Shown piece after piece: positions 4,752-45,006 of a DNA stretch of 45,006 nucleotides (its first letter is position 1; every line of letters begins with the position of its first letter). The notes beneath the pieces are model-generated. The model saw nothing but the letters and a program-made list of their open reading frames with translations. It made no database searches and was not told where the DNA came from. The position numbers and the translations under genes are program-made. Source of the DNA: Chitinophagaceae bacterium (lineage in GTDB: Bacteria; Bacteroidota; Bacteroidia; Chitinophagales; Chitinophagaceae); contig JAFMJI010000035.1 of the NCBI GenBank assembly GCA_017853575.1, positions 1 through 45,006 of the forward strand, written 5' to 3'.

Positions 4752-4774
4752 ATATAAACAATTAATCACTAATA

Positions 4775-4800
4775 AAAAAGACCCCCGAAGGAGTCTTTTT
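4775..4800 (-). terminator. Rho-independent terminator (symmetrical)
   Basis: An 8-bp stem of AAAAAGAC with GTCTTTTT, extended by C-G pairs with a tetraloop. It has T runs on both strands, so it could stop transcription in either direction. It closes the unit ending with the 93-aa gene at 4825-5106. Confidence 0.85.
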
Positions 4801-4824
4801 ATTAAAATTAAAAATAATTAGAGA

Positions 4825-5106
4825 TTACTCTACTACAGACATAGTAGGTTCTGCAGGAGCTTCAGCAGCAATGTGCTCAAAGGTATCCAAATTGATCTGA
4901 CCTTTACCGTAGTTAGCTTCAATAGATTGGAAGAACTCATTCTGTTCTTTTACTACTTCAGCCATTGCTTCTTTTACTTTCTCTTTTACAGAAAGCAAGT
5001 CATTCATTTGAAGTTCGATCTTACCCAAATCCATAATTACGTTTTGAGTCTTTTGCTGGAAGCCTTTGATTGCTTCGATTTCTTGTTCAGTTAATTTGGT
5101 AGCCAT
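4825..5106 (-). CDS. Small coiled-coil protein, 93 aa
   Basis: An acidic, helical protein starting MATKLTEQEIEAIKGF. Residues about 5-65 form a long amphipathic helix or coiled coil rich in Glu, Lys and Gln, followed by a short acidic tail ending SVVE. I take the ATG at 5106 rather than the one at 5133, because the extra residues (MHKPTKYII) have no matching character. It is the last gene before the terminator at 4775-4800 and follows a 168-aa gene. It resembles small phage chaperone-like or tail-accessory coiled coils. Function unknown. Confidence 0.72.
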   Translation of the reverse strand: MATKLTEQEIEAIKGFQQKTQNVIMDLGKIELQMNDLLSVKEKVKEAMAEVVKEQNEFFQSIEANYGKGQINLDTFEHIAAEAPAEPTMSVVE

Positions 5107-5163
5107 GATTATATATTTAGTTGGTTTATGCAAATATAATACTTTTCTTTAAACTATGCCAAA

Positions 5164-5670
5164 TTAGCAGTCTTCTACCTTTGCGGCAGAGAATAAACTG
5201 ACAAGTTTGGCTTTCAAGTGGCTATAACCAAATGCAAAAATGTCAACACCTTCTGCAGAAGACAAATCAGGAACAGTCAAAGTAACGGTGTACTCTTCAG
5301 TAACTTCTTCAGTTACGTACTCTTGTACAGTGTACTCTTCTGATACTTCTTCACCTGCTTCGTTAGTGATAGTACGAGTCTTAACTACGTCCTTCTGTAC
5401 AGGCTGCATCATAGTGCGAGTCTTAGTCTCTTCAACTTGCTTAGTCAAAGGAATAGACAAGTACTCACCAATTTGTTGGTTACGTGCTTGACCTCCGTCA
5501 ATAGGAGCCATAGCGTTAGGAGAAGCTACTGCATCTGCAGCGCTCATGAATAATTGAATACGGAAGTTAGCGTTACCACTCTTAGAGATTTGGTAGTCAG
5601 CAATACGTACGTAAGCTTCATTGGTAATACCTTTATCGGTACCAATGCTTTTTGTGATTTTAAGTGCCAT
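5164..5670 (-). CDS. Hypothetical structural protein, 168 aa
   Basis: Starts MALKITKSIGTDKGI. Residues 1-60 look like mixed beta structure (YVRIADYQISKSGNANFRIQL). Residues about 75-135 are a highly charged Glu/Thr/Val segment (EETKTRTMM, SEEYTVQEYVTEEVTEEYTV) with alternating beta pattern. The C-terminus (about 140-168) is helical. No membrane segment or known motif. It sits between a 115-aa gene and the small coiled-coil gene in the appendage cluster. The closeness to fibre genes suggests a fibre-associated or baseplate accessory protein, but I do not recognise the family. Confidence 0.72.
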   Translation of the reverse strand: MALKITKSIGTDKGITNEAYVRIADYQISKSGNANFRIQLFMSAADAVASPNAMAPIDGGQARNQQIGEYLSIPLTKQVEETKTRTMMQPVQKDVVKTRTITNEAGEEVSEEYTVQEYVTEEVTEEYTVTLTVPDLSSAEGVDIFAFGYSHLKAKLVSLFSAAKVEDC

Positions 5671-9232: not shown

Positions 9233-12200
9233 TTATTTATTCTCTAATGCTTTTATACGAGTAAGTAAACTGTCAATGGTAGACTGCTGTTCCTTCATTG
9301 CTTCTACCAAGAGAGGAATAATCTTAGTGTAAGCCAAGTTCTTGTATCCATCTTCTTGAGTAGTAACGGCTTCTGGAAGTACTGCCTCAACATCTTGAGC
9401 AATAAGACCTACGTCATGTGTGCCTACTTGCTCACCTGAGTTCCAATCAAACTCTACTCCGCTCAAAGCCTTAATCTTTTCTACAGGAGTACTGATAGGA
9501 GTGATGTTATCCTTAAGTCTAGAATCTGAAGGCTGAACAATCGGGTAGTCAAAGTTAACAGTATTTCCGCCTCTAGGTACGTACCACATTCTTGAGTCTG
9601 CACCGTTTTCAGCAATACGTCTGAATTCAATGTCTTGACCTCCAGCATCCCCAGTAAGACGTATTTTAAGTGCTTTCCAACTAGTGTCTGCTTGACCTCT
9701 TATCAAGAAGTAAGTCAAAGGATCTTGGTTGTAACCTACATTACCGTGAACTTCTAAACCTGTTCCGTTACCTCCTACAATAGTACACAAGTTACCTTCT
9801 TGCTCTACCAATGTTTTCCATGTACTCCAGTTTCCATTCCAACCAGTTCTATAAGTACCTTTTCTAAAAATAGTACCAATGTTACCTGAGTTTTCTGGGA
9901 AGTACATTTGCAATAATGGACCACCAGTTTCTCCGTAAGATAAAGCTACACCGTAATCGTAGGTAAGGTTAGGTCTGTTAGCTCCACTGTGTCCTAGTGC
10001 GTTAGATACAATTAACTTACCACTTACGTAGTAACTATTCCAGTCTTGTCCATAGATGTCACCAAACTTACTAAGTTGTTGTGCCATTGTTGCACTTCCT
10101 GCAGTAGTAGCACTTCCTGCTGTAGAAGCATAACTTACTGATTGACTACCTATATTTCCATTATGTACAAGTGTTCTCCAAGGTCCTACATCTCCAGGAC
10201 TAATACTTCTAACAAAGAAGTCTGATTTATTCCAGAAAGCAGTTGCTATATGGAACTCATATTGGTTACTTGTTGAACTATTATGGTGAGCATTTACAAT
10301 CAAATGGTACCAATCACTTGTTGGCATATTTGACATACCACTTCCATCGTAGAACCCAGAAGATAATCCTCCAGCAGAATTAGCACCACTATTACCAGTT
10401 GTTCTATATCCAAGTGTATTTACACCGTTACCTTTAACGAAGTATATTGAATCAGTTCCATCAAATAATTCTGAGTCCGCAGCCTTACCTGAAGTGGTTA
10501 ACCAACCACCATAATTTCCAAGTTGATTTCTTACGTGAGCAATACTTGATTTTCTAGACCAACCATCACCATTAGAAGTAATAAAACTACTAATTGTTGG
10601 GTTCTCAGTCTCAGATGTATTGAAATTTACATGGTTAGCGTATATGTAACCATTAGAATCACGTTGAACAACATGGTTTCCAGTTACCCCAGTTGAGTAG
10701 CTAAATCCCAATGAAGTCAAGAATCCACCATAGTTGCCTAGATCATTGGAGAACTGAGACAAGGCAGTAGGACGAGAACTTACGTTAGTCCATGCTACTG
10801 ATCCTGCACTACCTGTAACATTGATTCCCCAAGTACCTGAAGCACCTGATCCTGTAAGAGAAGGGGAGTAAGCTGTATAGTTTGCATCGTTAAGTAGTAC
10901 TCTCCAAGGGTTAAATGAACCAGCATCGCCATTTCTTGTTCTAAAGGCAATACCTGTTCCACTACCACTATAGGCAGCGTTAAGTTGAAGTGAATATCCT
11001 GTCTCACTGAATCTAGCAATAGGTCCTGTATAAGGAGCATTTACTGAATATGTAAATCCAGTTGAGTTACCATCCATTGTATTTGCATCAAGAGTAAATC
11101 CTTGATAATACATAAGTAAAGACGGTTTACTTGATACATTACCCCACGCTACTGCATTTGCTGTACCTGCAGTAGTTGCGTAACTTACTGATTGGCTTCC
11201 TATATTAGCAGTAGTAATTGCATCTGTAATTCCATAACCACTAATTGTAGTTGGCTTAGATGAAACATTCGCAAATGAAATACCAGTTATGTATCCACTA
11301 TTATTAGTAAACTGGGAAATGTTCATGCTTGTTAAACTACCTGCAGTGGTTGCGTATGAAACACTTTGAGAACCTATACTAGATGATGTAATTACAGTAG
11401 CACCATTTACTAAAAGATCTGCATTAAAATAGAAGTTAGGTCTATCTGTGTAAATGTGAGCATGAGAACTATTTGCAGGGCCAAACTGAATCCAACCAGA
11501 AGGAGTGGTATGTCTAAAACCCCAATCCCCATTTGCAAAATAATAGTTTGATCCAAGACTATGATTCCAGATTTTATATGTACCTACACCATTCAGTACA
11601 GAATTACTGTTAGGATCTAGATAATAACCAGTATCATTAGAGTCATAAAAAATAGGTGCTCTTAATGAACTTCCAGCCTGTAAGCTATTGTTAACATATA
11701 CATTACCTGCCCCAAGTGGATCACTTCCATTATTAACAGACATGACTTGTGTAACCATGTCATAGTCAGTATAAAATTTTATACCTTGATAGCCGGAATT
11801 TGCTCCTAATTTAATTCCTGTATGAAATGCAATTCTTAAATCAGGATAAGGATGATCCCATGATCCACTTTCTCTATATATTCCATATGCAGGAGATAGA
11901 TCATTATCAAAGTACATTCCATAAGAATGATTAGTACTTACACCATAATGATTTCTTAAATGATAAGAACTAAGTTTATCAGCGCTGAAATCTTGACCAG
12001 CTGCACCAGCTTTGTATGCATATCTACCATCTGATTCACTTTCTGTATAGTATCTATCATCGTGATTATGCGAAGGTAGAGAAGTAAGGTATCCAGCAGA
12101 TGCATGGTTACCCCACCCAAATGCGGTATTCCACTGACTAGAGTTACCGTATCCAGTAGAATATATAAGTCCACTAAAGGTTGCATTACCGTCTGGAGTC

Positions 12201-15200
12201 AATGCTAAGGAGTCTATTCTAGTAGCAAAATTCTTTACAAAGAAATTTAAAGAACCTGAAGACCATCCTCCGCAGTTTCCAACGCTTTCTTTCTTAGCTA
12301 CAATACCTGCTAAATTTACTGAGTTACTTCCTACAACACATTCATTGGAAGCAAATACCATACTTGCAGTAGTTTGATCTCCTCCGTTATTGTTGAATAT
12401 TACTAAAGATGGAATAGAACCATTTACTCCTGTAGAAGCGTTATCTCTTCTAAGAATAAGACGGGCAGTCCATTGATTAGGATTCTGATAAGTTGCTCCA
12501 TCCCACTGAAAGTTACTTTGTCCATTAGATGTGGTACCTCCAATAGATTGGTATCCTACAATACTTAAATTAGTAAGGTTAGAGTTACTATTAGGGTCAA
12601 GATAGTAGTTAGTATCATTTGAATCATAAAAGATAGGAGCACGGAATGAACCAGCAACAGTATTGTTACCACTCATATCCAGTACCCAACGATCTGCAGA
12701 AGCAGACCATCCACCAATACGCATTATGTTATCAGAATCTAAACCAAAGTTTACAGCATAGTTTCCTGCTCTATGGAATGACATAAACGCAGCATTACCA
12801 CCTGTAGCATATGCTTGAAGACTAGGACTGTCTAGTCCTCCCAAGTAAGATCCTCTATTACTTCTAAAGTAGAAATAGTTTCCTTCCGTTAATGTAGTTC
12901 CAGACAGAGGTACATAAGAACTTAAGGCAGAAGAAGTAACATAGCCTGGACCATTAGAAAGTTGATTTAAATTAGTTAGATTACCCGAATCCCAAACTTG
13001 TCTCCAAGCCTGAGAATTATTTATAGCAGTTGCACTAAAACTCCTATAATACATACTTCCATTAGAACTGAATCCTAATTGACTATTGTATTCTCCAGGA
13101 TGTCTGTTAATATTTAAAATAGCATTAGAATTATCAGTAGCAGGCATACCTAAAAGAGCAGCTCCTGTACTAATTTGTCCTGTAAATATTATTCTGTCTG
13201 TTCCAGGATGTGTATCTGCAGCACCTCCATCACCTAAAAAAGTATTGGTTTCTGTATAACCTGTAATATATCCATTAGGATTACTAGAGTTGTAAGGAGT
13301 ATACCCTAAAGCACCTGTTACTTGTCCTGATGTTATTCCTGTTAAGTATCCCGCACTAGCATGATTTCCCCAGTTGTAAGCGGCTATCCAGTTAGCAGAT
13401 GTTCCATAAGAAGTTGTAGTAATAAGTCCTGCAGTCCAGATACCTGTACCAATAGCTGTTTGAGTATTACCATTAGTCACAAACAACGCTTGGTGATCTA
13501 ATCCAGGTTTAGATTGTCCTCCTACGTTTGTATGTGTCCATGCTATACCATAAAGAGACCCAGTAGAAGTTCCATCAGTAGCTAACTTGTATGCATCACC
13601 CATTGCAAATACACCTTGGTATCTAGTAGAAGAATAAACACCTACTAAACCGTCTCCAAAGTTTTGGTTTGTATAAACATTACCATTAACTGATATGCCT
13701 GCAGAAATAGTTGTTAATTTCCAGTTTCCCCCAGAATATAAAAGAGTATCTCCATTACCAGGATTTAATCTAATACCCCAAGAACCTGAAGAGTTTAGAA
13801 GTCCAAATCCATTAGCATCAAAGTAACCTAAATGCCCTTTTAATACACTATTTTGATCTCTAACTTGAATTGAGCCGTAACTATCTGAATTTACTTGAAA
13901 ATTTAAATAGTTAGATCCATTATTAATAAATCTAGTACCCGCATTAAAGTGAAGTTGACTAACGTAGTTAACCTCACGATTCTGCATGTTAAAATTCCTA
14001 GACCAGTTTACATAGGTAGTATCATTTGTAACGTAGTTAAACAAAGCAGTATCTGTACCAGCATTCCTTGTATTCCAAGTAAAGGTGTAACCTGAATCCC
14101 AATACCAATGTAAACCATAATCAGAACCTGCTTGAGAACCTTCACCAAAGTAGAAGTGTGCATCACCTGAATCAGTTGCTCCTACTCTAAGAATGTCATT
14201 GATGTGAACTTCATCTCCGTTACCATCTCCCAAGTAAGTGTTTCCGTAAACACTTAACTGGTTGATATTCAATGTACCCAGTCTAGAGGTACCATCCATA
14301 TTTAGGTAGTAGTTATTATTATCACGGTCGACCAGAGTGTATGTATACAATGTATTATTGAAGTACATATCACCACTTACAATAAAGTAATTACTACTAT
14401 TCCACATAATTCTTCCTCCACTATCTTGACCAGTAGAAGTTACAAAATCAATGTAAGATCCGTTTCCTCCAAATAATTGTAGCTGAGCGTAGTTATCGGC
14501 TAGGTTAAAGCCCATACCCTTATTAGTCAAAGAGTATCTAGAACCTGCTACACTTCTGTCTCCTACATAGAATGGGAAGTTTGCATCTACTGTATCACTA
14601 TTGATAGCAATTTTACTATCTGAAATTGTAATAGAGTTAGATCCGTATTTACCAATATTAACTCTATTGTCAGCAAAAGCCTCAATTACAGGAAGACCTG
14701 CAATTGTATTTACTGAAAACAAAGAGTCACTTAAGTCATCTGTTACTGTAAATAAACGTCCATTTACTCCGTCTACTGCTAATACATCTAAACCACTAGT
14801 TGTACCAGTAACATATAATGGTACAGAACTTGGAGAAACTACAGCCTCTCCTTCACCAATTGAAAGAGATTTTGCAATAACCATTCTACCATCTGTTGTA
14901 AGAGATGCTGCACCTTGATTATCATTATGTGCTTCATCCCCCCACCAGAATCCTCTACCACTATTGTTATTCATTTGAAATGACATAGCATACTCATCAG
15001 TACCCAAATGACCATAATCATAGCCATTTTTCATACCAATAGTATAAGTACCACTATCCCAAACTCTTAACTTATCTCTTGTTTGGTTACCATTAAAACC
15101 AACAAACCCTACTGCTTCAATGTTTACTACACGTGAATTACCATTAGGATCTAAATAATAACTAGTATCCTGAGAGTCATAAAAAATAGGAGCACGCATA

Positions 15201-15832
15201 GAATGATCACTAAACCAATTACCAGTATTATCACAATAAGCTCCCCAGTTACTAGAAGAATTTAGAAATCCTATTCTACCGCTGTTTGTGTGTATACGTC
15301 TAGTAGTCTCATCCGTATCTGTCATATAAATATCAGCCGATGTACCACTACCTACGGTTAGTGCTCCATATACTTGAACATTGTAACTGTTGTCCATTCT
15401 TAGTCCCCAGTTACCTGCTGAGTTTAAGAAACCAATTTCATTTGATGAGTTAGCATAAAGATAACCTCTCAATGCACTTACATGACCTCCTGTGTAGAAT
15501 CTAATTGCGGATAAACCAGTCGTAGATGATGCATCCCAATAACCATTTGCTTGTGATGACCAATGCATTGTAGTACTTTCATTATACAGACCTGTGTTAG
15601 AGTTGTCATTTCTAAACCATGCAGTAGTATAAGTATTTGAGAATCTTACAGTACTTGAAGTAGATACTCTTTGGTTTTCTAAGGGTTGGAATCTTCCATC
15701 AGATTCAGTCTCAGTAAAATACCTATCGTCATGGTTATGAGACGGAAGACTGGTTAAAGCATAACTCCCGATGTTACCTGTGTGTATAGACTGGTAACCG
15801 CCTATTGTGGTATTGGATAATAAATTAGCCAT
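9233..15832 (-). CDS. Giant tail fibre, C-terminal peptidase S74 chaperone
   Basis: A 2199-aa fibre. The N-terminus (SYALTSLPSHNHDDRYFTETES) is a repeat type seen at fibre collars. The body is built from repeats: the APIFYDS.DT.YYLDPN type three times plus a degenerate copy, WGNHASAGYLT twice, and SIGSQSVSYATTAG several times. Residues about 2102-2199 form a peptidase S74 intramolecular chaperone (SDSRLKDNI, then GLIAQDVEAVLPEAV and a C-terminal coiled coil). In this family the domain drives trimerisation of beta-helical fibres and is then cut off by self-cleavage near the conserved Ser. It overlaps the upstream fibre gene by 8 bases. Role: long host-binding fibre. Function is confident; receptor unknown. 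Confidence 0.92.
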   Translation of the reverse strand: MANLLSNTTIGGYQSIHTGNIGSYALTSLPSHNHDDRYFTETESDGRFQPLENQRVSTSSTVRFSNTYTTAWFRNDNSNTGLYNESTTMHWSSQANGYWDASSTTGLSAIRFYTGGHVSALRGYLYANSSNEIGFLNSAGNWGLRMDNSYNVQVYGALTVGSGTSADIYMTDTDETTRRIHTNSGRIGFLNSSSNWGAYCDNTGNWFSDHSMRAPIFYDSQDTSYYLDPNGNSRVVNIEAVGFVGFNGNQTRDKLRVWDSGTYTIGMKNGYDYGHLGTDEYAMSFQMNNNSGRGFWWGDEAHNDNQGAASLTTDGRMVIAKSLSIGEGEAVVSPSSVPLYVTGTTSGLDVLAVDGVNGRLFTVTDDLSDSLFSVNTIAGLPVIEAFADNRVNIGKYGSNSITISDSKIAINSDTVDANFPFYVGDRSVAGSRYSLTNKGMGFNLADNYAQLQLFGGNGSYIDFVTSTGQDSGGRIMWNSSNYFIVSGDMYFNNTLYTYTLVDRDNNNYYLNMDGTSRLGTLNINQLSVYGNTYLGDGNGDEVHINDILRVGATDSGDAHFYFGEGSQAGSDYGLHWYWDSGYTFTWNTRNAGTDTALFNYVTNDTTYVNWSRNFNMQNREVNYVSQLHFNAGTRFINNGSNYLNFQVNSDSYGSIQVRDQNSVLKGHLGYFDANGFGLLNSSGSWGIRLNPGNGDTLLYSGGNWKLTTISAGISVNGNVYTNQNFGDGLVGVYSSTRYQGVFAMGDAYKLATDGTSTGSLYGIAWTHTNVGGQSKPGLDHQALFVTNGNTQTAIGTGIWTAGLITTTSYGTSANWIAAYNWGNHASAGYLTGITSGQVTGALGYTPYNSSNPNGYITGYTETNTFLGDGGAADTHPGTDRIIFTGQISTGAALLGMPATDNSNAILNINRHPGEYNSQLGFSSNGSMYYRSFSATAINNSQAWRQVWDSGNLTNLNQLSNGPGYVTSSALSSYVPLSGTTLTEGNYFYFRSNRGSYLGGLDSPSLQAYATGGNAAFMSFHRAGNYAVNFGLDSDNIMRIGGWSASADRWVLDMSGNNTVAGSFRAPIFYDSNDTNYYLDPNSNSNLTNLSIVGYQSIGGTTSNGQSNFQWDGATYQNPNQWTARLILRRDNASTGVNGSIPSLVIFNNNGGDQTTASMVFASNECVVGSNSVNLAGIVAKKESVGNCGGWSSGSLNFFVKNFATRIDSLALTPDGNATFSGLIYSTGYGNSSQWNTAFGWGNHASAGYLTSLPSHNHDDRYYTESESDGRYAYKAGAAGQDFSADKLSSYHLRNHYGVSTNHSYGMYFDNDLSPAYGIYRESGSWDHPYPDLRIAFHTGIKLGANSGYQGIKFYTDYDMVTQVMSVNNGSDPLGAGNVYVNNSLQAGSSLRAPIFYDSNDTGYYLDPNSNSVLNGVGTYKIWNHSLGSNYYFANGDWGFRHTTPSGWIQFGPANSSHAHIYTDRPNFYFNADLLVNGATVITSSSIGSQSVSYATTAGSLTSMNISQFTNNSGYITGISFANVSSKPTTISGYGITDAITTANIGSQSVSYATTAGTANAVAWGNVSSKPSLLMYYQGFTLDANTMDGNSTGFTYSVNAPYTGPIARFSETGYSLQLNAAYSGSGTGIAFRTRNGDAGSFNPWRVLLNDANYTAYSPSLTGSGASGTWGINVTGSAGSVAWTNVSSRPTALSQFSNDLGNYGGFLTSLGFSYSTGVTGNHVVQRDSNGYIYANHVNFNTSETENPTISSFITSNGDGWSRKSSIAHVRNQLGNYGGWLTTSGKAADSELFDGTDSIYFVKGNGVNTLGYRTTGNSGANSAGGLSSGFYDGSGMSNMPTSDWYHLIVNAHHNSSTSNQYEFHIATAFWNKSDFFVRSISPGDVGPWRTLVHNGNIGSQSVSYASTAGSATTAGSATMAQQLSKFGDIYGQDWNSYYVSGKLIVSNALGHSGANRPNLTYDYGVALSYGETGGPLLQMYFPENSGNIGTIFRKGTYRTGWNGNWSTWKTLVEQEGNLCTIVGGNGTGLEVHGNVGYNQDPLTYFLIRGQADTSWKALKIRLTGDAGGQDIEFRRIAENGADSRMWYVPRGGNTVNFDYPIVQPSDSRLKDNITPISTPVEKIKALSGVEFDWNSGEQVGTHDVGLIAQDVEAVLPEAVTTQEDGYKNLAYTKIIPLLVEAMKEQQSTIDSLLTRIKALENK

Positions 15833-18800
15833 TTATCTTTTTGTTTAATTCTTGGACTTGATTAGTTAATTCCTTTACTGCACCTATAAGAGCAGCAGTT
15901 AAGCGAGAGTAGTGAACCCCTATAGGTTCTCCGTTCTCATCATATTGTACAAATTCTGGGTACACCTCAGCAACTTCTTCTGCAATAAGACCTAGTTCAG
16001 TAGTTTCAGACCCAATCTTATTGTAAGTGACTGGTCTCAAATTTACTACCTTTTCTAAATTTCCCTCACTTGTTTCTACGTTTTCTTTTAGTTTAATAGA
16101 AGAGTTTTCTGTAATAGTTCCATTAACAGTTAAATTTCCATTAACAGTCAAGGCTCCACCAATTGATCCTCCACTTAAGGGTAAGTAGTTTGCTAAAGCA
16201 GAGTTGAGCGCATATCCTGCTGAGGCATGATTACCCCAACCATATGCTGTATCCCAGTTTCCAGAATTGTAACCAGAAGCTGATATAGTTCCAACAACTA
16301 CTAAATTACCTGCATGCCATGCATAACCATCTGCTCTAAATACATGGTAAAGGTTTTCAGAAACAGAACCACAACCATAACCTACACAAGAGTTTCCATA
16401 AATTCTAATCTCTTCATTGTTATCATCGTTAAGTTGGAATTCAAGCCAGCTGTTACCTGCACCTCTAGCAGAAGCTTCACTTATCCAACGCATAGAGTAA
16501 GGATCACTTTGAGGACTTCCAGCAGTATCTCTAAATCTAATCTCGTTAACATAAATAGGCGAAGCATATGCATTCAGACCAGCATTAAGAGTAAGAGCAC
16601 CAGTCATGGTATCACCAGACTTAGATACCTTACCTGCAATACTGTTAGTTACTGTAGTAGCAAAGTTTGAATCATCTCCTAATGCAGCAGCCAATTCATC
16701 TAGAGTATCTAGTGCTCCTGGTGCTCCATTAATTAAGTTATTGATTTGGGTAGTTACATAAGATGTAGTAGCATAGCCAGCAGAAGCGTGATTTCCCCAC
16801 CCAAAGGCTGTGTTCCAGTTACTTACGTTAGTTGAAGTGAAGTTAGCAGTTGTCCATACGTCAACATAATCAGCATAAGGAGTAGTAGATCCAAATGTTT
16901 GCTGATAGATACGCATTCCAATACCTGACTTCTTGAACATGACCAAATTGTCTGTTCCACCAGAACTATCGGTGTAAGAACGCATATGCAAATAATCTGC
17001 ATATGGGGCTCCTCCGTCATTATTCCAAGAAGTAAATCCGAACTGAAGATAACCTGCAGTAGTTTCTGAAGGAGAGATAATTCTATTGTCGTACCTAAGA
17101 AGTTGTCCTGTTTGATTAGTTACTTGACCAGATTCTGATGCATAGCCTGCATTATTTGCATAACTAACGTTTTGAGACCCTATGTTTCCTGAGTGAATAA
17201 CAGTTTGGTTGTCCCAATAAAGAACACCGTTAGTACGCATCTCAAGGAACTTACCCACTACCCCACTAATATGAAATGCTATACCTGTGGTTGTGTTGTC
17301 GTAAGATTCTGTCCAAAGAGCAGCACTTGTGTAGAGATTGTTAGTCTGTGACTTTCTTCCTCTTATTGTATTGTATCCGTAAATACCTCCATAGTTAATA
17401 AATTCACCATCGTTTCTAAGAATACCAGGAGTGTATACACCAGAACCATATTCTCCAGATTGATTAAGTCTAAGCCAAGAATCGTATGAAGCTATTGTGT
17501 CTTTATTATTTAAGTGAACTCTACCATCTCCAGTAATTCTAGTAGTCCAATTAGTTCCATTATTTACACCAATAGCATATCCTGCAGAAGGAGATACCCT
17601 AGTATACATACCATAGTCAAGACCAGAAGCATTTACATATAATCCCCAGTCATTATTATTTGACTTAGTTATGTAAACTACAGCATCTGTAGAAGAGTTA
17701 CCTGATCCTCCATCAAATATAGCAGCACCACTAACGTGAAATTTTTCAGAAGGAGTAGAAGTTCCAACACCTACGTTTCTAGCAGCATCAATTGTTACGG
17801 CTCTATTTTCTTGAATACTAAATCTTAATTCTGAACCAACTACATTAAAAGGTGCCCAAGCACCTAATCCTGAGTTATGCCCTCCAATTACAGCACCGTT
17901 AGTACTAGATGATAGATAACCACTTATAACTTTATCAGTTCCGCTTTTACCAAATACAGCAGTTCCATACCATGCCGATTCAGCAGGAACTGCTACGTCT
18001 CCTAGTAGAAGAGATCCTCCTGGAGTAATACGCATTTTTTCAGTAAGTGCAGACCCATTATAAGTCTTAAATAAAAGATTATATCCACTATTAATAATCT
18101 CAGCATCTCCACTACCCCATCTTAAACTATTGCCGCTATATATATTTATAGAACCAGCTACATCAAGTTTATAATTAGGAGCTGTAGTTCCAATACCTAC
18201 GTTACCTCCACTTTGGATGTAAACAGCGGTTGGAGAATATCGTGTTCCAAATGATAAGTCAGTAGCTCCAGTGCTGTAATAATGAAGTTTTATGTTTCCA
18301 AGTTCAGTTGCGGCATCTAAATCTTGCGAAAACCTGATTCCCGTAAAGTTACCATCACTAATACCGCCAACGTTATTTATATTTAATTGATAAGCGGCAG
18401 CTTGTGTAGCCCTACTCAAGCTTAATAAATGTGTAGGAGCAGTAGTTCCTATTCCTACGTTGCCACCATTAGTAATTACTGCGTAAGTAGTTCCACCACC
18501 ACTACTTCTAAAGTTGTGTGTTGTATTATCATAGTAGTTTGCTGGATCTCCAGATCCTCCCAAGTACATAGTAACACTGTTTGAAGCGTTGTATATTACA
18601 TTATATGTTCCACTGTTCTGGGCAATAAAAATGCCCCTAGAAGAAATAATTCCATCAACATCTAAACGGGATACAGGACTGACAGTACCAATACCTAAAT
18701 TTCCATTATTTAAAGTCATCCAATAGGATGCACTTTGTGATCTCCAATAGTGTATGTTTGAATCTATGTAATTTCCATCTCCTGCATTATATAAATGTAT

Positions 18801-19208
18801 ATTATTCCAAGGATCACGTAAGTTTAAAAAGCTACTTCCTTTTTGTAATCTTACATTGTCTGTAACATTTGCAAACAATAGACTACCTGTCATAGTGTCT
18901 CCAGACTTAGCTACCTTGTTAGCTATACTATTTGTAATAGTAGTAGAGAAGCTAGCGTCATCTCCAAGTGCTGCTGCAAGTTCATTAAGCGTATCTAATG
19001 CTGCAGGAGCTGCATCTACTAAGGCAGCTATTGCACTAGTCACATAAGACTGAGTAGCATATCCGCTTAAACTAGCAGAAGTTAAATAAGCTTGAGATGT
19101 AACCCAAGATTGAGTAGCTGCAAGAGCACCATTAATAGTAATAGTCCCTGAGGTAACTACGTTACCCCCTACTATAAGTCCGTTTTTTACGATAAATTCA
19201 TTAGACAT
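15825..19208 (-). CDS. Tail fibre with peptidase S74 chaperone, 1127 aa
   Basis: Starts MSNEFIVKNGLIVGGNVV. It has an internal duplication: the block APAALDTLNELAAALGDD...SGDTMTGSL near residues 65-115 reappears as APGALDTLDELAAALGDD...SGDTMTGAL near 840-890. Between them are NVGIGT-type repeats (GNVGIGTTAPTHLL, GNVGIGTTAPNYKL) and WGNHASAGY units. Residues about 1036-1127 are a second, divergent peptidase S74 chaperone (SSIKLKENVE, LGLIAEEVAEVYPEF, coiled-coil end). Family knowledge predicts trimeric fibre folding followed by self-cleavage. It overlaps the next fibre gene by 8 bases and follows the homing endonuclease gene closely. Confidence 0.92.
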   Translation of the reverse strand: MSNEFIVKNGLIVGGNVVTSGTITINGALAATQSWVTSQAYLTSASLSGYATQSYVTSAIAALVDAAPAALDTLNELAAALGDDASFSTTITNSIANKVAKSGDTMTGSLLFANVTDNVRLQKGSSFLNLRDPWNNIHLYNAGDGNYIDSNIHYWRSQSASYWMTLNNGNLGIGTVSPVSRLDVDGIISSRGIFIAQNSGTYNVIYNASNSVTMYLGGSGDPANYYDNTTHNFRSSGGGTTYAVITNGGNVGIGTTAPTHLLSLSRATQAAAYQLNINNVGGISDGNFTGIRFSQDLDAATELGNIKLHYYSTGATDLSFGTRYSPTAVYIQSGGNVGIGTTAPNYKLDVAGSINIYSGNSLRWGSGDAEIINSGYNLLFKTYNGSALTEKMRITPGGSLLLGDVAVPAESAWYGTAVFGKSGTDKVISGYLSSSTNGAVIGGHNSGLGAWAPFNVVGSELRFSIQENRAVTIDAARNVGVGTSTPSEKFHVSGAAIFDGGSGNSSTDAVVYITKSNNNDWGLYVNASGLDYGMYTRVSPSAGYAIGVNNGTNWTTRITGDGRVHLNNKDTIASYDSWLRLNQSGEYGSGVYTPGILRNDGEFINYGGIYGYNTIRGRKSQTNNLYTSAALWTESYDNTTTGIAFHISGVVGKFLEMRTNGVLYWDNQTVIHSGNIGSQNVSYANNAGYASESGQVTNQTGQLLRYDNRIISPSETTAGYLQFGFTSWNNDGGAPYADYLHMRSYTDSSGGTDNLVMFKKSGIGMRIYQQTFGSTTPYADYVDVWTTANFTSTNVSNWNTAFGWGNHASAGYATTSYVTTQINNLINGAPGALDTLDELAAALGDDSNFATTVTNSIAGKVSKSGDTMTGALTLNAGLNAYASPIYVNEIRFRDTAGSPQSDPYSMRWISEASARGAGNSWLEFQLNDDNNEEIRIYGNSCVGYGCGSVSENLYHVFRADGYAWHAGNLVVVGTISASGYNSGNWDTAYGWGNHASAGYALNSALANYLPLSGGSIGGALTVNGNLTVNGTITENSSIKLKENVETSEGNLEKVVNLRPVTYNKIGSETTELGLIAEEVAEVYPEFVQYDENGEPIGVHYSRLTAALIGAVKELTNQVQELNKKING

Positions 19209-19211
19209 GTT

Positions 19212-19922
19212 TTAGTATTTATATTTCCAAACAAATCCGTATGCTAACTTCTTAGTTCCACGAATACACTTTCCTATATGACTATCATCATAATTTAAAG
19301 TAGAAGCTATGTTTTTTATGGTAGTTGCCCACTCTTTTATTACAGAATTATCTACTGGATTAATTTGCAATATACCACCATGATTTTCTAATAGATTCTT
19401 TTCTCTAGTGTTTAAACATGCTAATTTATAACTATCAGGTTTAATTTTATTTTTATTAGCTATTGATATTTTTTTCTTGGCTTCTTCAGAGCAAGCATAA
19501 TTAGACTTTTTTGGAGCCCTTCCTTTCTTTGCTAAACTCATAAGTTGTTTTGTTTCTTCTGATCTTTTCTGCCCTAAGTGATGACTACTTCTTTTTAATT
19601 TAGTTTCTTCTGTATCTACTCTACCAAAAGTACCATCTCCACCTGCAGTCATGTTCATACCTAAAGGATTGTTTTTGTAGAAAGTATTTAACAAAGTAAT
19701 ATACTCAATTTCTTTAGTAGAAAGTAAGTCGGGATTACATGTTTCTAAAACTTCTAAAGTATGGTTTTCCCAACCATACTTTTTTATACTATTGTAAATT
19801 AAGGGTTGCTTCTTACAGTTACAGTTTCTGTAACAAGAAGTCCTACTAGACAAGCACATAGTTTTACCTATGTAAACTTTTCCATTAGGGTTTGTGATTT
19901 TGTAAATTGTAGCTTGCTTCAT
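19212..19922 (-). CDS. GIY-YIG homing endonuclease, free-standing
   Basis: A 236-aa protein with an N-terminal GIY-YIG nuclease domain: IY at 6-7 (ATIYKITNPNG), YIG at 17-19, Arg27, Glu71 and the GMNMTAGGDG end of the fold. DNA-binding repeats follow: NUMOD3-like segments at about 116-135 (LGQKRSEETKQLMSLAKKGR) and 145-159, then a NUMOD1-like C-terminus (about 182-235, ending GFVWKYKY). Such enzymes cut intron- or HEG-free alleles and spread by repair. There is no intron around it: it lies between two intact fibre genes, 34 bases after one stop and 3 bases before the next ATG. It is much more Lys-rich than its neighbours, consistent with separate acquisition. Confidence 0.93.
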   Translation of the reverse strand: MKQATIYKITNPNGKVYIGKTMCLSSRTSCYRNCNCKKQPLIYNSIKKYGWENHTLEVLETCNPDLLSTKEIEYITLLNTFYKNNPLGMNMTAGGDGTFGRVDTEETKLKRSSHHLGQKRSEETKQLMSLAKKGRAPKKSNYACSEEAKKKISIANKNKIKPDSYKLACLNTREKNLLENHGGILQINPVDNSVIKEWATTIKNIASTLNYDDSHIGKCIRGTKKLAYGFVWKYKY

Positions 19923-19956
19923 TTTTTATTGTTTTCACTATCCAACAATGTTTGTA

Positions 19957-22900
19957 TTAGAAATATTTATAACTCATTACTATCGTGTAAGGATTAGCAC
20001 TTGAGTTGACTGCGTTAATTCTTGCATCTGAGCCCACTAGAGAGCTTGTAAAGTTAACAGAGGTAGTTGACCCTATGTCAGGGGTAGTTGTTTCCGTATG
20101 AGCGATTGTAGGCGTTCCTGATTGATTCCAGGTAACCATGATTGTACCAGCTCTTTGGTCTGTAAGTGAGTTGTTGTTTAAAATATAGTACTCAATAAAG
20201 GCACACATACCTACGCTTACGGTTTGAGCCCATACAACAGTAGTAGCACTAGGATTAATAGTAGCCGTAGAAGACATGTGTACTACTCCGTTACCAGTTC
20301 CTATTCTAAGTTTATCTTGTACTCTTACTTGTCCGTTTACATCTAAGTCATATCCTGGAGAAGCTTGGTTAATACCTACTCTGTTAGTAGTAGAGTTGTA
20401 AGTCAAAGCAGAGGCTCCTGCTAAAGATCCAGAACTGTTGTATTGGAATTGTGTATCAGATCCTCCTGGAGTTGTTGTTGCTATTGTCCAGCTTCTATTT
20501 GCGCTTAAGTCATAGCTAGTTCCATTAATAGTAAGCGTTCTTGCTTGTGGAACGTAACCTGCTGAACTATGATTACCCCAGCCATACGCAGTATTCCAGT
20601 TAGTACTGTTACCGCCTGTAGCTGTAATAACTCCACTTACGTCTAATTTAGTAGAAGGTGTTGTTGTGCCTATTCCTACGTTACCTGCGTCTATAGTAAT
20701 ACCCCCCGAAGTTGCTGGATCATATCCCCCTGCTACAATATAAACTTTATCGCCAGGAGTTCTAGCGGCTAAAGTCATAGCATTTTGGTTACTACCTACC
20801 CCTGCCGAATTAGCGTGCCATAAACTTCCAACATGGGTTCCTGTATTTTCATAAAAGTCTATACCAGAATATCCACTAGCGCTTGTGTGTTGAATATGTA
20901 CTGTAGCCTGACCAGCAGTACCACCGTTTACTGCTAAAGCTGTACCAGGACTAATAGTACCAATACCTACATTTCCTAAATTATCAATAAATAATCTTGA
21001 AGTTGTTGAGCCAGTTCCTGTTTCTAAACTTATAGTTTTAGCTTGTACTGATAATGGTTTAAATTCTGCTCCCCAGTCAACTGCATATAAGAAACTGATT
21101 CCTGATTGTACTGCAAGTGTTGTAGAATGTCCTTGTGCAGATAAACCAACAACAGAACCCGTTGCTGATATTGCTCCACTCACTTCAAGTTTTTCATATG
21201 GATTAGTAGTACCTATTCCTACGTTACCAGATGATAAAATGCTTAAAAACGTATTAGCTCCAGAATTCCAACTACCAGGTGAGGTGTTGTATTTAATATC
21301 AAACCTACCACCGTAAAAATCTAACCAGGGAGTGCCACTACCTACAGATAAAGCAAGACCATTGTTGTTACTACCGGAGCTATTTAAAATTCTAATAGCA
21401 TTATCATTACCTGTAGCAACATCTAGCTTATAAGCAGGACTAGTGGTACCAATACCTACATTATCAGAAGCATTTATGGTTATAGTTGCAACTGAGCTTG
21501 CTCCTAAGTGTAGATAGTTAGCTGCTCTTAAAGCGGTGCTGTCTGATTGAGCATTTGAAAATATATGATTAGCGTTACCGTATCCTAAAAAAGTTCTGAA
21601 TGTAGTATTTTCATTGATAACTAAACCACCATATTGATCTGTAGAATCTATTCTAATATTACCTGCATCTGAGCCATTAGCGGCCCCTACTATGTGCAAT
21701 TTATTTCCGGGGCTTGTAGTACCAATTCCTACGTTAAATCCAAAAATTGAATCACCATTTGTTTTCCACTGTTGTGAAGCATCAACTCTATAGGCAGCAC
21801 TTCCCGTAAGTCCATTTTTTACTACTTGTAATAACTCTCCTCCACCATCTCCAGAAAATGCTTTTCCTACTGCCCAAGTTCCAGTATAATTACTACCTTG
21901 AGCTCCCTCTAGTCTATAAAAAACAGCAGAATATCCACTTGCTGGATTTATTACAATACCCTCTCCCCATGCTACGCTTGAAGGTGTTATTTCAAGTTTA
22001 GAATAAGGACTAGTAGTACCAATCCCCACATTTCCAGTTGAGCGTTGGAATATTACTGCATTTCCAAGGTAAGCTCCATTGTCAGCATATCTTGCTAAAA
22101 ATAAATCACCCCCAACATTACTTCCTGGCTCAGCACCATGTACATATAAATCCCATCTGTTAAAACCAGATGTATTCCATATAAACTCTCTATAGTGAGA
22201 CGTAGCACCACCATCTAAAATGATACCACTTGTAAATTTAGCATATCCGTTTACATCTAACTTTTGTGAAGGAGTTGTAGTTCCTATACCTACATTTCCC
22301 GAAGTATTAATATATATTCTATTTACATTATTAGTATAAAATCCTAAAGGTGTAGCGTTAGTTGATCCTATATAACCTTCATTAGAAATAAGACCTGCAT
22401 ACATTAGATATGTACCTGAGTTCTCAATCTTTATAATTCGGTCACCAGCACCATATAGGTGAAGATTGTGTGAAGGACTAGGAGTACCTATTCCCACATT
22501 ACCACTATCTGTTATTTGAAATCTACCTCCAGTAATACCTGGGGCATCAACAGTTAGTGCACCTGTACCTCCTATGTTTAAAGCGGAGTATCCCCCACCA
22601 TTAGTATCAATACGTATACCGTTAGAGTTTCCAGAAGAAATAGATAGTTTACCATACATGGTAGTAGTACCTATTCCTACATTTGAACCATCATCGTAGA
22701 TCTGAGAGTTACCTAAAGTAGTAGATCCTGTGAACTTAGAAATGTAATTTGTTGTTCCGCTAGCATTGGCAGGAGTGTATCCTAACCATCCAGCAATAGT
22801 CTTGTTTACCCAAAGAGTTCCGTTAAATCCTAATAACTCTCCGTTTACTGGTAAGTTTGTTTTTAAATCTACATCATGAATCTCGTTTAACTCAAATCCA

Positions 22901-23574
22901 TTCTGTACTTTAACGAAGATTTCTCCGTTGTTAGAGTTCTTACGGGTTACTATACCGATAAAAACTAAGTGAGCAGGGGCATACGGTTTATTGATTAAGC
23001 CGTAAATTAAGTTTCCTCCTGTTCCCAACCACACAGGATCACCTGCTGCGCCTGCAGTTGAGGTATCTAATCCATCTAAAAGACCTTCTGTCACTACATT
23101 GGCAAAACCATTTGTAGAAACTGTGGCATCCAAAAGACCCATAGTCTTAGAAGATGTGGCTTCAGAAGCATTAGAAGCCAAACCAACAATCATGTTAGTT
23201 CCATCTGCACTAGTAACGTAAACTGCTTGTCCCTTGTTAATAGCTACACCTGCCTTTACGGTATGCTGTAGTTTAGAAACATAAGGAGTTGTAATTGTCC
23301 AAGACCTATTAGCAGTTAAATCATAACTTACACCGTTAATAGTTAACGTGCGAGATGTAGGAACGTAACCACTTAAGCCTATGCCAGATGTAATATCTGA
23401 CATTAATTGAGCATAGGTTCTAGTATATAGTTGTCCTTGTGCAGTTGTTCCTACAATAACATGATCCCAGCTAGCTGTGTTGGTTATTCCTGTTAAATAA
23501 ACAGTCCCTGAAAGAGTGGTTAAACCTTGTATAGTTACACCACATTGATAGGTTTTGCTGCTGAGTGACTTCAT
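19957..23574 (-). CDS. Tail fibre with VGIGTT repeats, 1205 aa
   Basis: A fibre built largely of NVGIGTT.P..KLDV units: I count nine VGIGT copies plus a degenerate one (RVGINQASPGYDLDV), spaced roughly 60-100 residues apart. A block reading RTLTINGVSYDLTANRSW occurs near residue 75 and again near residue 1040, so the ends share a module. The C-terminal domain, about 1130-1205, is beta-rich (GTIMVTWNQSGTPTIAHTE ... NPYTIVMSYKYF), a type seen at fibre tips. It carries no S74 chaperone, unlike its two neighbours. The preceding terminator at 23592-23621 suggests its own promoter. Function as fibre is confident; receptor unknown. Confidence 0.9.
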   Translation of the reverse strand: MKSLSSKTYQCGVTIQGLTTLSGTVYLTGITNTASWDHVIVGTTAQGQLYTRTYAQLMSDITSGIGLSGYVPTSRTLTINGVSYDLTANRSWTITTPYVSKLQHTVKAGVAINKGQAVYVTSADGTNMIVGLASNASEATSSKTMGLLDATVSTNGFANVVTEGLLDGLDTSTAGAAGDPVWLGTGGNLIYGLINKPYAPAHLVFIGIVTRKNSNNGEIFVKVQNGFELNEIHDVDLKTNLPVNGELLGFNGTLWVNKTIAGWLGYTPANASGTTNYISKFTGSTTLGNSQIYDDGSNVGIGTTTMYGKLSISSGNSNGIRIDTNGGGYSALNIGGTGALTVDAPGITGGRFQITDSGNVGIGTPSPSHNLHLYGAGDRIIKIENSGTYLMYAGLISNEGYIGSTNATPLGFYTNNVNRIYINTSGNVGIGTTTPSQKLDVNGYAKFTSGIILDGGATSHYREFIWNTSGFNRWDLYVHGAEPGSNVGGDLFLARYADNGAYLGNAVIFQRSTGNVGIGTTSPYSKLEITPSSVAWGEGIVINPASGYSAVFYRLEGAQGSNYTGTWAVGKAFSGDGGGELLQVVKNGLTGSAAYRVDASQQWKTNGDSIFGFNVGIGTTSPGNKLHIVGAANGSDAGNIRIDSTDQYGGLVINENTTFRTFLGYGNANHIFSNAQSDSTALRAANYLHLGASSVATITINASDNVGIGTTSPAYKLDVATGNDNAIRILNSSGSNNNGLALSVGSGTPWLDFYGGRFDIKYNTSPGSWNSGANTFLSILSSGNVGIGTTNPYEKLEVSGAISATGSVVGLSAQGHSTTLAVQSGISFLYAVDWGAEFKPLSVQAKTISLETGTGSTTSRLFIDNLGNVGIGTISPGTALAVNGGTAGQATVHIQHTSASGYSGIDFYENTGTHVGSLWHANSAGVGSNQNAMTLAARTPGDKVYIVAGGYDPATSGGITIDAGNVGIGTTTPSTKLDVSGVITATGGNSTNWNTAYGWGNHSSAGYVPQARTLTINGTSYDLSANRSWTIATTTPGGSDTQFQYNSSGSLAGASALTYNSTTNRVGINQASPGYDLDVNGQVRVQDKLRIGTGNGVVHMSSTATINPSATTVVWAQTVSVGMCAFIEYYILNNNSLTDQRAGTIMVTWNQSGTPTIAHTETTTPDIGSTTSVNFTSSLVGSDARINAVNSSANPYTIVMSYKYF

Positions 23575-42543: not shown

Positions 42544-42626
42544 TTATATGGCTAATACATTGATTAACACTCGTTTGAGCGAGTATAAACAGCATTTAGG
42601 CTCAAAGCGTCACTATATGAGTGGGT

Positions 42627-43001
42627 ATGGAAACAATAAAAGAAACATTAGATATTAAAGGAGTAACAATTGAGTTAGTTGTTAAGCTTCCTTATGGTAG
42701 AATGATAGAGCATTGCATCACTACAGTAGAAGGTAAAGAAAGATGGGGATACATTAGTAACCCTGTTTTATTTGCGCACATCTGCTATCATGGTAAGTTT
42801 GCGTTTACGCTAACCCGTAAGGAGTTTGCTGATCATATTAAGGTAGATATGAGTGATGCTCTTAACAGGCTAAGAGAAAAGACTGTCGCTTTCTTAAACA
42901 ACGGTTATGAGTTAAACGAGGGTACTCGTTGGCATGAAAGAGCTGTTGAAGAAAGAGATAGTCATTTGGCTTTCTTACCTAGAATTTTTGGGGGGGCTTA
43001 G
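42627..43001 (+). CDS. Small hypothetical protein, 124 aa
   Basis: Starts METIKETLDIKGVTIELVVK; I use the ATG at 42627 rather than a GTG two codons earlier. N-terminal half beta-rich (LPYGRMIEHCITTVEGKERW, GYISNPVLFAHICYHGKFAF), C-terminal half helical (RKEFADHIKVDMSDALNRLR, EKTVAFLNNGYELNEGTRWH). No membrane segment or known motif. It lies downstream of the repeat-rich control region, so it may be the gene those repeats regulate. Function unknown. Confidence 0.7.
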   Translation: METIKETLDIKGVTIELVVKLPYGRMIEHCITTVEGKERWGYISNPVLFAHICYHGKFAFTLTRKEFADHIKVDMSDALNRLREKTVAFLNNGYELNEGTRWHERAVEERDSHLAFLPRIFGGA

Positions 43002-44167: not shown

Positions 44168-44198
44168 TTGCCCTATTACCGGGTGAGTTGTATATTTG
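44168..44198 (+). promoter_or_regulatory. Bacteroidetes-type promoter before tRNA-Leu
   Basis: TTG at 44168-44170, 20 bases of spacer and TATATTTG at 44191-44198 match the Bacteroidetes primary sigma consensus (TTG, 19-21 bases, TAnnTTTG). The expected start point, a few bases downstream, falls just before the tRNA at 44205. The same segment is an 11-bp hairpin (about 44157-44197, containing ATATACAAC/GTTGTATAT), so it may also end the upstream transcript, although no T run follows. Confidence 0.65.
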
Positions 44199-44204: not shown

Positions 44205-44293
44205 ACTACTATGGCGGAATAGGTAGACGCGCAGGACTTAAAATCCTGTTGTCAGTAATGACAGTGTGGGTTCAATTCCCACTGGTAGTACCA
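44205..44293 (+). tRNA. tRNA-Leu (anticodon TAA)
   Basis: A complete class II cloverleaf. Acceptor ACTACTA (44205-44211) pairs with TGGTAGT (44283-44289). D arm GCG/CGC, anticodon stem CAGGA/TCCTG with loop CTTAAAA, giving anticodon TAA at 44239-44241. Long variable arm (TGTCA/TGACA, typical for Leu) and T arm GTGGG/CCCAC with loop TTCAATT. CCA is encoded (44291-44293). Phage tRNA genes commonly support late codon usage; here Leu UUA codons are frequent in the A+T-rich genome. Confidence 0.96.
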
Positions 44294-44493
44294 AAAAACA
44301 ACTTCTTACAGAAGACGGATTAGCACCGTTGAAAGAAACCTTGACTCCTGGGAGTAATTACCCAAGTGAGTAAATGCCTCAAGGTTACTGTGATGGACCC
44401 TGCTCTGCCAGTGCGCACTTTAGCAACAGGTGAACAGTAAACTATGTTCAGTAAAATCTAAAAGCATGGTGATCATGCAAGGAGTTGTTTTTT
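44294..44493 (+). ncRNA. Candidate structured RNA A, directly after tRNA-Leu
   Basis: A roughly 200-base element with nested helices. The closing stem AACAACTTCTT (44297-44307) pairs with AAGGAGTTGTT (44479-44489), 11 bp. Inside lie ACGG/CCGT (44315-44329), AACCTTGA/TCAAGGTT (44337-44386, 8 bp), TGAACA/TGTTCA (44431-44450) and GCATG/CATGC (44464-44478), stacked directly on the closing stem. A T run (44488-44493) ends it, so it also resembles an intrinsic terminator. It has no good reading frame. No known family is recognised. Confidence 0.6.
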
Positions 44494-44643
44494 AAGATCA
44501 ACCCTGTGAATAGTATTCATAGGCCATGTACCATTAAGCATACCGTAAGAACTGCTAAATGGTCATTCTAGTTACTGGGAATACATAACTAGTAACAACC
44601 CCCAGTAAGCTTGTCTGATCAACAGAAACTGCTGGGGTTTTTT
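44494..44643 (+). ncRNA. Candidate structured RNA B with terminator
   Basis: Roughly 150 bases following RNA A. GATCA (44496-44500) pairs with TGATC (44616-44620). Inside lie a TGAATagtATTCA hairpin, an ACCATT..AGC/GCT..AATGGT arm and CTAGTTA/TAACTAG. It ends in a strong terminator: CCCCAG (44600-44605) with CTGGGG (44632-44637), then TTTTTT. It could be a second domain of RNA A or a separate RNA. No known family is recognised. Confidence 0.55.
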
Positions 44644-44645
44644 AT

Positions 44646-44760
44646 AGTCAGGTGGCGGAATGGTAGACGCTAAATGTGAAAATTGGAATTGCGGTGTGGA
44701 AGCCGTAGTTCCGCTAACAAAATCACTTTACCATTACAGGTTCAAATCCTGTCCTGACTA
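44646..44760 (+). tRNA. tRNA-like element with non-canonical anticodon arm
   Basis: Acceptor AGTCAGG (44646-44652) pairs with CCTGACT (44753-44759), discriminator A. The D arm is normal (GCG, loop GAATGGTAGA, CGC) and the T arm is normal (ACAGG, TTCAAAT, CCTGT). The anticodon region is not: instead of a 17-base arm there are about 65 bases, with a stem AAA/TTT plus GTGA/TCAC (one bulged T) and a 10-bp hairpin GGAATTGCGG/CCGTAGTTCC inside. No normal 7-base anticodon loop can be formed, and CCA is not encoded. The D arm is Leu-like. It may be a tRNA with a small insert or a tRNA mimic. Confidence 0.6.
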
Positions 44761-44778
44761 CAAATAATAAATCTAAAT

Positions 44779-44946
44779 ATGACAGTTAAAGAAAATACCT
44801 TAAGTGAAATCAACACTGACGAATCTGATTTGAACGAAGTCGAAGGAACAGGTCCTTACTGCTGTAATGTGAGGATGGTATTAGCACCTTCTGAAATAGT
44901 TTATGAATGCTTAGAATGTGGTGGTTGGTGTTACAGCAGTTCTTAA
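44779..44946 (+). CDS. Cys-rich 55-aa peptide, precursor-like or zinc-binding
   Basis: Starts MTVKENTLSEINTDESDLNE. Residues 1-25 are acidic, without Cys, and end EGTG; residues 26-55 carry all five Cys: Cys28-Cys29, C44-x-x-C47 (YECLECGG) and Cys51, with the end CYSSS. This split resembles a modified-peptide precursor with a leader, comparable to Bacteroidetes 'GG' leader precursors, though the pair is G-T-G rather than G-G. A mini zinc-binding protein (CLECGGWC) fits as well. It lies alone between two tRNA-like elements. The reading frame is short but complete. Confidence 0.55.
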   Translation: MTVKENTLSEINTDESDLNEVEGTGPYCCNVRMVLAPSEIVYECLECGGWCYSSS

Positions 44947-44953
44947 TAAACAT

Positions 44954-45006
44954 AGTCAGGTGGCGGAATGGTAGACGCTAGAAGTGAATAGATAAGTAAG
45001 TGTATT
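44954..45006 (+). tRNA. Second tRNA-like element, cut by window edge
   Basis: Begins with the same 5' half as the element at 44646: 29 identical bases, covering acceptor AGTCAGG, linker, the whole D arm and two following bases. After that it diverges (GAAGTGAATAG...). The end is outside the window, so the anticodon and T arms are not visible. The duplication of the D-arm half with a different anticodon half points to a series of related elements. Confidence 0.55.

Follow-up and report, generated by a model that had tools for sequence, protein, structure and literature searches.

Hypervariable cores in place of the anticodon arm: a predicted family of tRNA-like RNAs in phages

Overview

At the right end of a 45,006-nucleotide contig (contig C26 of a 2.3-Mb assembly, GCA_017853575.1; this whole stretch of DNA is "the window" in what follows) lie one complete and one truncated member of a large family of units in which the acceptor, D and T arms of a tRNA appear to be joined to a variable, folded domain that stands where the anticodon arm should be. 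As read from the sequences, the family combines a constant chassis, compensatory pairing, absence of an anticodon arm, hypervariable cores, arrays, apparent swapping of cores and recurrence in unrelated contexts. The explanation toward which we lean, if only slightly, is that these are stable, non-coding RNAs for which a tRNA body serves as chassis, with exchangeable cores that act in trans, probably by blocking proteins of the host or of rival phages; such RNAs would be transcribed, matured in the manner of tRNAs and directed at a target. The units are not normal tRNAs, an intron is without support, and we rate the family as a new kind of RNA. Among the titles and opening lines of abstracts searched, where subscription journals and preprints are thinly covered, so that absence from print is not implied, we found no description of such RNAs, and a search for terms in PMC10264068 gave no match.

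The two modules described in a first-pass annotation of the window are real, and the window proved to be the edge of something larger. Chance is excluded, because the 26-base 5' end of the modules is present in at least 120 stretches of the IMG/VR viral contigs.

The window and its RNA gene cluster

The window is a tailed-phage contig, with PHROGs family matches to terminase, portal and head proteins. For the terminase there are 121 matching phage records, mostly of uncultured crAss-like, Bacteroides and Flavobacterium phages, with identities of 23.9-26.4% among the 15 of the 121 matches listed; for the head protein there are 11, of which seven are from Cellulophaga phages and the best is Leptolyngbya phage Lbo-JY46 (28.5%). 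From these phage relatives and from one Chitinophagaceae metagenome-assembled genome (MAG), we infer that the host phylum is Bacteroidota. Several other features of the contig deserve mention. A gene for a homing endonuclease of the GIY-YIG type lies among the tail genes (19212-19922, minus strand), and a GIY-YIG-like ORF was seen by eye in a related contig, L074 (8209-8943, plus strand). The tail-fibre-like ORFs at 9233-23574 (minus strand) are very long (2199, 1127 and 1205 aa), and the ends of the 2199- and 1127-aa ORFs resemble by eye what we take to be intramolecular chaperone (S74-type) domains. A Pistol self-cleaving ribozyme (42569-42630, plus strand; 63.4 bits with Rfam) is found at the start of a 126-codon ORF (42621-43001) for which there was no PHROGs or Pfam match.

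The RNA genes at the right end are all on the plus strand and follow one another in the order tRNA-Leu(UAA), structured stretch with freshwater-1 RNA, module 1, 55-codon ORF and start of module 2. The cluster is headed by a normal tRNA-Leu(UAA) (44205-44293), identified by both ARAGORN and Rfam. Immediately 5' of it, the sequence TATATTTG (44191-44198) is a candidate -7 box of the Bacteroidota type, a motif that is not enriched over the window as a whole (61 occurrences vs 56.5 expected), and from its position it may drive the entire cluster. The non-coding stretch between the tRNA-Leu and module 1 (44290-44645) is structured: the fold of 44290-44646 has a z of -3.95 and was equaled by one of 100 shuffles. 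In this fold, a long helix spanning about 200 nt closes the first part of the stretch, which also includes a match to freshwater-1 RNA (RF02979) at 44389-44456, with 66.3 bits and an E of 1.4e-14, under the gathering score of 72. The cysteine-rich small ORF of 55 codons between the modules (44779-44946) has no Pfam match at E 0.1.

As the first-pass annotation had reported, a distance of 308 bases separates the starts of the two modules (44646 and 44954), and 29 bases are common to both (44644-44672 and 44952-44980). Module 1 (44646-44760) is a complete tRNA-like RNA, recognized by the Rfam tRNA model, by sequence and by fold, and the same unit occurs in the phage contigs L074 and L103. Its acceptor strands, AGTCAGG/CCTGACT (44646-44652/44753-44759), pair fully, as does the stem ACAGG/CCTGT of its T arm (44736-44752), so both arms are as good as had been claimed; A73 is at 44760 and C74 at 44761. 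The D arm, which had also been called good, is a more qualified case. The D region (44653-44671) is placed by the Rfam model alignment, but in the minimum-energy fold the D loop pairs with the end of the insert and the D arm is open, so the assignment rests on the model alignment and on the rest of the family. Between the D region and the T arm, a core insert of 64 nt (44672-44735) takes the place of the anticodon arm, in good agreement with the earlier estimate of about 65 bases with a 10-bp hairpin; the fold extends this hairpin (44684-44713, loop 44696-44701) to 12 pairs, with G-U ends. The fold of the module is better than that of all 200 shuffles (z -4.36). The Rfam tRNA model (RF00005) spans module 1 end to end with 38.0 bits, against a gathering score of 29, in an alignment that skips the anticodon region, and no intron family matched. 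ARAGORN, though it calls the tRNA-Leu(UAA) in the same window, makes no tRNA call for module 1.

Of module 2, only the 5' part (44954-45006) lies within the window. Module 2 is complete in both L074 and L103, where its L074 form (2261-2367) has a 56-nt insert with a covarying pseudoknot. Behind these examples is a large family, with arrays and exchange of cores, that could not be seen from the window on which the first-pass annotation was based.

Distribution of the units

We read 132 occurrences of the 26-base 5' end, of which 127 had the T arm in place, four were cut by the end of the sequence and one had a variant T arm. The 127 complete modules, from the IMG/VR stretches and other loci, hold 88 different inserts between identical ends. 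Further scans left either the acceptor or the D arm free, and together five scans of viral contigs and one of genome contigs yielded at least 614 units with 471 different cores at 352 of 366 loci, a set that excludes the window stretches, sub-stretches of records and cores longer than 170 nt. What is constant across the units is the acceptor and T arms, A73, C74 and, for the most part, the D arm; the remainder is hypervariable, and the stretch from D arm to T stem ranges from 20 to 140 nt (median 59.5) among the 264 cores with a recognizable D arm. The median length of a whole unit is about 105 nt. A small number of units are tRNAs of the ordinary kind or nearly so; of 277 units, ARAGORN accepts 54 as tRNAs, and the anticodons that it assigns are scattered.

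In bacterial genomes the units are rare. In a set of 84,980 genomes, one per species, the exact 26-base start was found in three contigs (L123-L125), all of them in MAGs, one labeled Chitinophagaceae and the others Neisseriaceae and Helicobacteraceae. A D-to-T pattern with 45-75 bases between was present in one of 195 genomes of the host family, this being the window, and in two of 395 genomes of the class; the second (G334) has one copy on a long bacterial-genome contig, with the same core as a unit in L136, a contig that encodes a repressor-like ORF by eye and has no near match among phage records. When the constant arms were compared with 50,697 GenBank phages, 113 records matched, and among the best 60 of the 113 by coverage none exceeded 30% of the query; thus, no annotated cultured member was found among the matches listed.

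The units often lie in tRNA clusters. Another tRNA called by ARAGORN lies within 1 kb of 105 of 277 units, GOLLD RNA occurs in seven of 35 unit-bearing records, and freshwater-1 RNA occurs in eight of the 35, three of which exceed the curated score. In L278 (2366-2783, plus strand), a GOLLD RNA (262 bits) is followed directly by a tRNA-Leu and then by a tRNA-like unit.

The tRNA chassis

All seven acceptor pairs are formed in 257 of 277 units or, counting distinct units only, in 175 of 193 (window stretches are counted twice in the larger figure). The fully paired acceptors comprise 34 different sequences, e.g., TCCCTTG/CAAGGGA, GAAGTGG/CCACTTC and AGTCCTG/CAGGACT. Alignment A1, made up of 54 units out of a selection of 72 in which paired acceptors were required, has changes on both sides in seven of seven acceptor pairs and in three of five T-stem pairs, and 99.5% of its cells pair, as compared to 29.5-41.6% in slid registers. 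The D stem is invariant in A1; in a larger set, there are 87 cores with a D stem that is not GCG, and the stem pairs in 45 of them vs 18.6 by shuffling. The D arm has the exact Leu-type form in 135 of 258 cores, and D arms of other types are also present. Of the 471 cores, 461 retain U8 and 404 retain U48, while A73 is found in 556 and C74 in 597 of the 614 units. Since the ordinary tRNAs at the unit-bearing loci also encode C74, in at least 298 of 329 cases, we infer from these retained bases that units and tRNAs share the processing of their ends. At the level of the family, then, the paired 7-bp acceptor, T arm, D arm and elbow bases of tRNA (RF00005) are all present.

Some units have long insertions in the D loop, a few of them hairpin-like (L274 453-650, minus strand; L108 near 4910, plus strand; L281 541-713, plus strand), and the insertion in L274 contains a second T-arm-like motif.

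The variable core

The proposal that module 1 is a tRNA mimic held up for the family as a whole, which consists of tRNA-like RNAs without an anticodon loop. Among the 264 cores with a recognizable D arm, a loose test for an uninterrupted anticodon arm (7-nt loop) next to the D arm found 16 vs 14.8 by shuffling, and a strict test found three vs 1.7 expected. What many cores have instead is a long-range helix whose 3' strand ends two nt (61 of 150 core families vs 10.7 in shuffles) or three nt (38 of 150 vs 11.3) before the T stem; there is a small excess at one and four nt (20 vs 12.1 and 22 vs 12.2, respectively) and none elsewhere. Given the long-range helix, a helix that crosses it is found in 14 of 72 cases at p 0.1 vs 7.2 expected, in seven vs 3.6 at p 0.05 and in none at p 0.01. 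The long helix is thus strongly supported and the crossing helix weakly, and a pseudoknot as the general rule of the cores has modest support. These two separate tests replaced a combined test of pseudoknot architecture, which 34 of 102 clusters passed at p 0.05.

In individual families, the evidence comes from covariation. The family of module 2 (seven sequences) has changes on both sides in two pairs of the first and three pairs of the second helix of its predicted pseudoknot, with 97.5% of cells paired and a score that none of 500 shuffles reached; one member, L068, has an apparent shift of two bases in the first helix. The four sequences of the L018/L005/L088/L270 family, with a small H-type pseudoknot, have one such pair in the first helix and two in the second, a number reached by 144 of 500 shuffles, with a covariation score reached by none of 500. 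A third family, also of four sequences, has two covarying pairs in its long helix; 236 of 500 shuffles reached the number of doubly changed pairs and three of 500 the covariation score. Compensatory changes thus support the predicted acceptor and T arm across the aligned units and, in these three families, the core helices, which in two of the three would form pseudoknots. When families were clustered loosely, so that unrelated cores were chained (one cluster had 63 members), the covariation count in helix cells was 127 paired vs 139 unpaired double changes, a figure on which we do not rely. A first clustering of the inserts had been dropped when it chained 68 of them into one cluster.

In L171, more than 1 kb that is mostly non-coding by eye (4380-5510, plus strand) lies between tRNA-like units and is perhaps another large structured RNA.

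Arrays and exchange of cores

Units often occur together. Covariance model R1, run over whole virus records, matched repeatedly in 26 of 30 records and in 28 of 39, two sets that share one record and in which the matches include ordinary tRNAs. Under stricter rules, 11 units are counted within 3.5 kb of L272 and 12 in L273; ARAGORN calls one and three of these, respectively, tRNAs. All units are on a single strand in 133 of 133 multi-unit loci, an overlap with an ORF of at least 100 codons is seen for 36 of 614 units, and the nearest long ORFs run in the direction of the unit both upstream (431 of 487) and downstream (429 of 483). Boxes of the form TAnnTTTG are present 34 times in the 60 nt 5' of 357 units vs 12.2 by shuffling, so that most units have no recognized promoter of their own. 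A downstream leader common by eye to the window and L272 is rare (one of 364 units).

The cores of the first 451 units form 254 families, and copies of the same core have unrelated flanks on both sides in 37 of the 85 families with at least two flanked copies. Seven core families are each joined to two or more different 5' acceptors, and four of the seven show changes that compensate. The converse was also observed: among 496 flanked units, unrelated cores were found in 12 of 39 pairs with alike flanks, seven of which were re-aligned (weakest flank, 198/265). The L171 and L119 units match at 300 of 300 bases upstream and 298 of 300 downstream, yet their cores, 137 and 80 nt long, are unrelated, and the flanks of L247 and L069 match at 293/298 and 292/298 around cores that are likewise unrelated. 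Such near-identical flanks argue that the cores have been replaced in place. Within one locus, related cores were seen in none of 548 pairs vs 1.6 expected, a difference that is not significant.

What the units may do

According to the explanation that we favor, the tRNA half of the RNA (acceptor, D and T arms, elbow bases and A73-C74) would most likely make the RNA a substrate of the host tRNA machinery, which would trim it on either side, complete its CCA end and keep it protected. The place of the anticodon and variable arms would be taken by an exchangeable folded domain, often with the long-range helix that stops 2-3 nt short of the T stem and, in certain families, with a pseudoknot. Phages would gather different cores in same-strand arrays, where one core would be exchanged for another in situ, probably through homologous recombination within the constant ends and the flanks. 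The core would probably act in trans, a mode favored because the same core adjoins unrelated genes, and would most likely bind and block proteins of the host or of a competitor phage, e.g., defense factors. Hypervariability and in-place swapping suggest shifting opponents, and hence counter-defense or rivalry between phages; a counter-defense role is perhaps the one to consider. A bolder version, which we find possible but would not count on, is that phages of Bacteroidota draw on a common, mobile stock of RNA effectors with tRNA bodies, in which aptamer-like cores would each bind a particular protein of the host or of a rival phage, arrays would constitute a repertoire and swaps would track the defenses of the host. 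It would be an RNA parallel to the cassettes of polymorphic toxins or anti-defense proteins.

There is some chance, a rather small one, that the units are instead punctuation or recombination cassettes, whose tRNA-like fold would do no more than show where long phage transcripts are to be cut and provide homology for recombination, and whose core would be filler. They do lie among small genes and tRNAs that share their strand, and recombination cassettes fit the constant ends and the core swaps; the mobile regulatory cassettes of T4-type phages offer a parallel. Filler, however, should not preserve long-range helices and pseudoknots by compensatory change, or recur in unrelated flanks, although recent transfer could partly explain the latter. 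Because the cores are structured, punctuation alone is an insufficient explanation.

We think it unlikely that the units serve as decoys or competitors for enzymes that recognize tRNAs, such as tRNA-targeting nucleases, leucyl-tRNA synthetase or EF-Tu. Leucyl-tRNA synthetase is not known to need the anticodon of tRNA-Leu, so charging of Leu-type units with A73 is possible, and the exact Leu-type D arm of about half of the cores, together with the A73 of most units, speaks for such a role. A decoy for anticodon nucleases, by contrast, would have no anticodon arm to offer, and a single enzyme target leaves the 471 different cores and the non-Leu D arms unexplained.

That the units are tRNA debris, i.e., pseudogenes with ends homogenized by gene conversion, is quite improbable. 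Their frequent position in tRNA clusters, with an ARAGORN tRNA within 1 kb in the 105 cases noted above, and the few near-normal tRNA units are what debris would predict; the compensatory changes in the acceptor, the retained elbow bases and the paired cores are not.

Still more doubtful are antisense RNAs carried on a tRNA scaffold. Hypervariable payloads would suit many targets, but the cores are folded and complementarity to their own loci is not in excess: in 243 families, the mean longest match was 9.33 vs 9.35 in shuffles. Antisense action within the own locus was rejected on these figures; sense matches were slightly in excess (10.28 vs 9.55).

Interrupted tRNA genes whose transcripts would be spliced into normal tRNAs, a reading encouraged by the location of the insert at the anticodon arm and entertained in the first-pass annotation as an intron-like insert, are highly improbable, given inserts that differ between members and, at 20 nt, can be too small for an intron plus an arm, an anticodon arm (scored uninterrupted) at chance level beside the D arm, and no match to an intron family in the window, L136 and the other loci scanned.

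If the explanation in terms of chassis RNAs with trans-acting cores is true, the units are a widespread class of phage RNA in which the body of a tRNA is the natural carrier of hundreds of different exchangeable RNA domains. They would then offer a new angle on the large tRNA islands of phages and on unexplained stable RNAs such as T4 species 1 RNA, and a natural library of folded RNA domains for tests against host defense. The constant ends are a simple handle by which many members can be sequenced from any sample.

Comparison with known systems

GOLLD and ROOL occur near tRNA islands (PMC12286853). These RNAs and freshwater-1 resemble the units in being phage RNAs of such neighborhoods. They differ in that they are separate families with conserved sequence, whose matches lie beside the units; the covariance-model matches to freshwater-1 and GOLLD in the window, L275 and L278 are all outside units.

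Phage T4 provides two older examples, species 1 RNA (rnaC) and species 2 RNA (rnaD), stable RNAs that are annotated in its tRNA cluster with no stated function. Like the units, both are RNAs of a phage tRNA cluster that exceed the length of a tRNA, and rnaC has a perfect T arm after a long middle, with a 3' end that pairs by eye with the 5' end at about five of seven positions, two of them G-U. Unlike the units, each is a single copy, and a T arm was not seen in rnaD. With model R1, the match to rnaC is confined to its 3' 92 bases and takes an inner stretch for the 5' acceptor. The score, 25.3 bits, is under those of two and over those of six of the eight T4 tRNAs; as this is within the range of T4 tRNAs, a likeness and not a kinship is claimed.

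The tmRNA molecule has a tRNA-like end domain without an anticodon arm, plus pseudoknots, and the units share both properties, the pseudoknots in some families. The units depart from it by the tRNA-type D arm that most of them retain, and neither ARAGORN nor Rfam found a tmRNA match in the window or the loci scanned. In the decoys of type III antitoxins (pseudo-ToxI), a pseudoknot is bound by a ToxN-type nuclease, and pseudoknots are again present in some families of units; no Rfam antitoxin match was found in the stretches scanned.

There is also a likeness in design with engineered tRNA scaffolds for recombinant RNA, in which a foreign RNA replaces the anticodon arm for the sake of stability. 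The scaffolds are man-made and carry single inserts, whereas the units are natural and hypervariable, and their cores appear to be swapped among phages.
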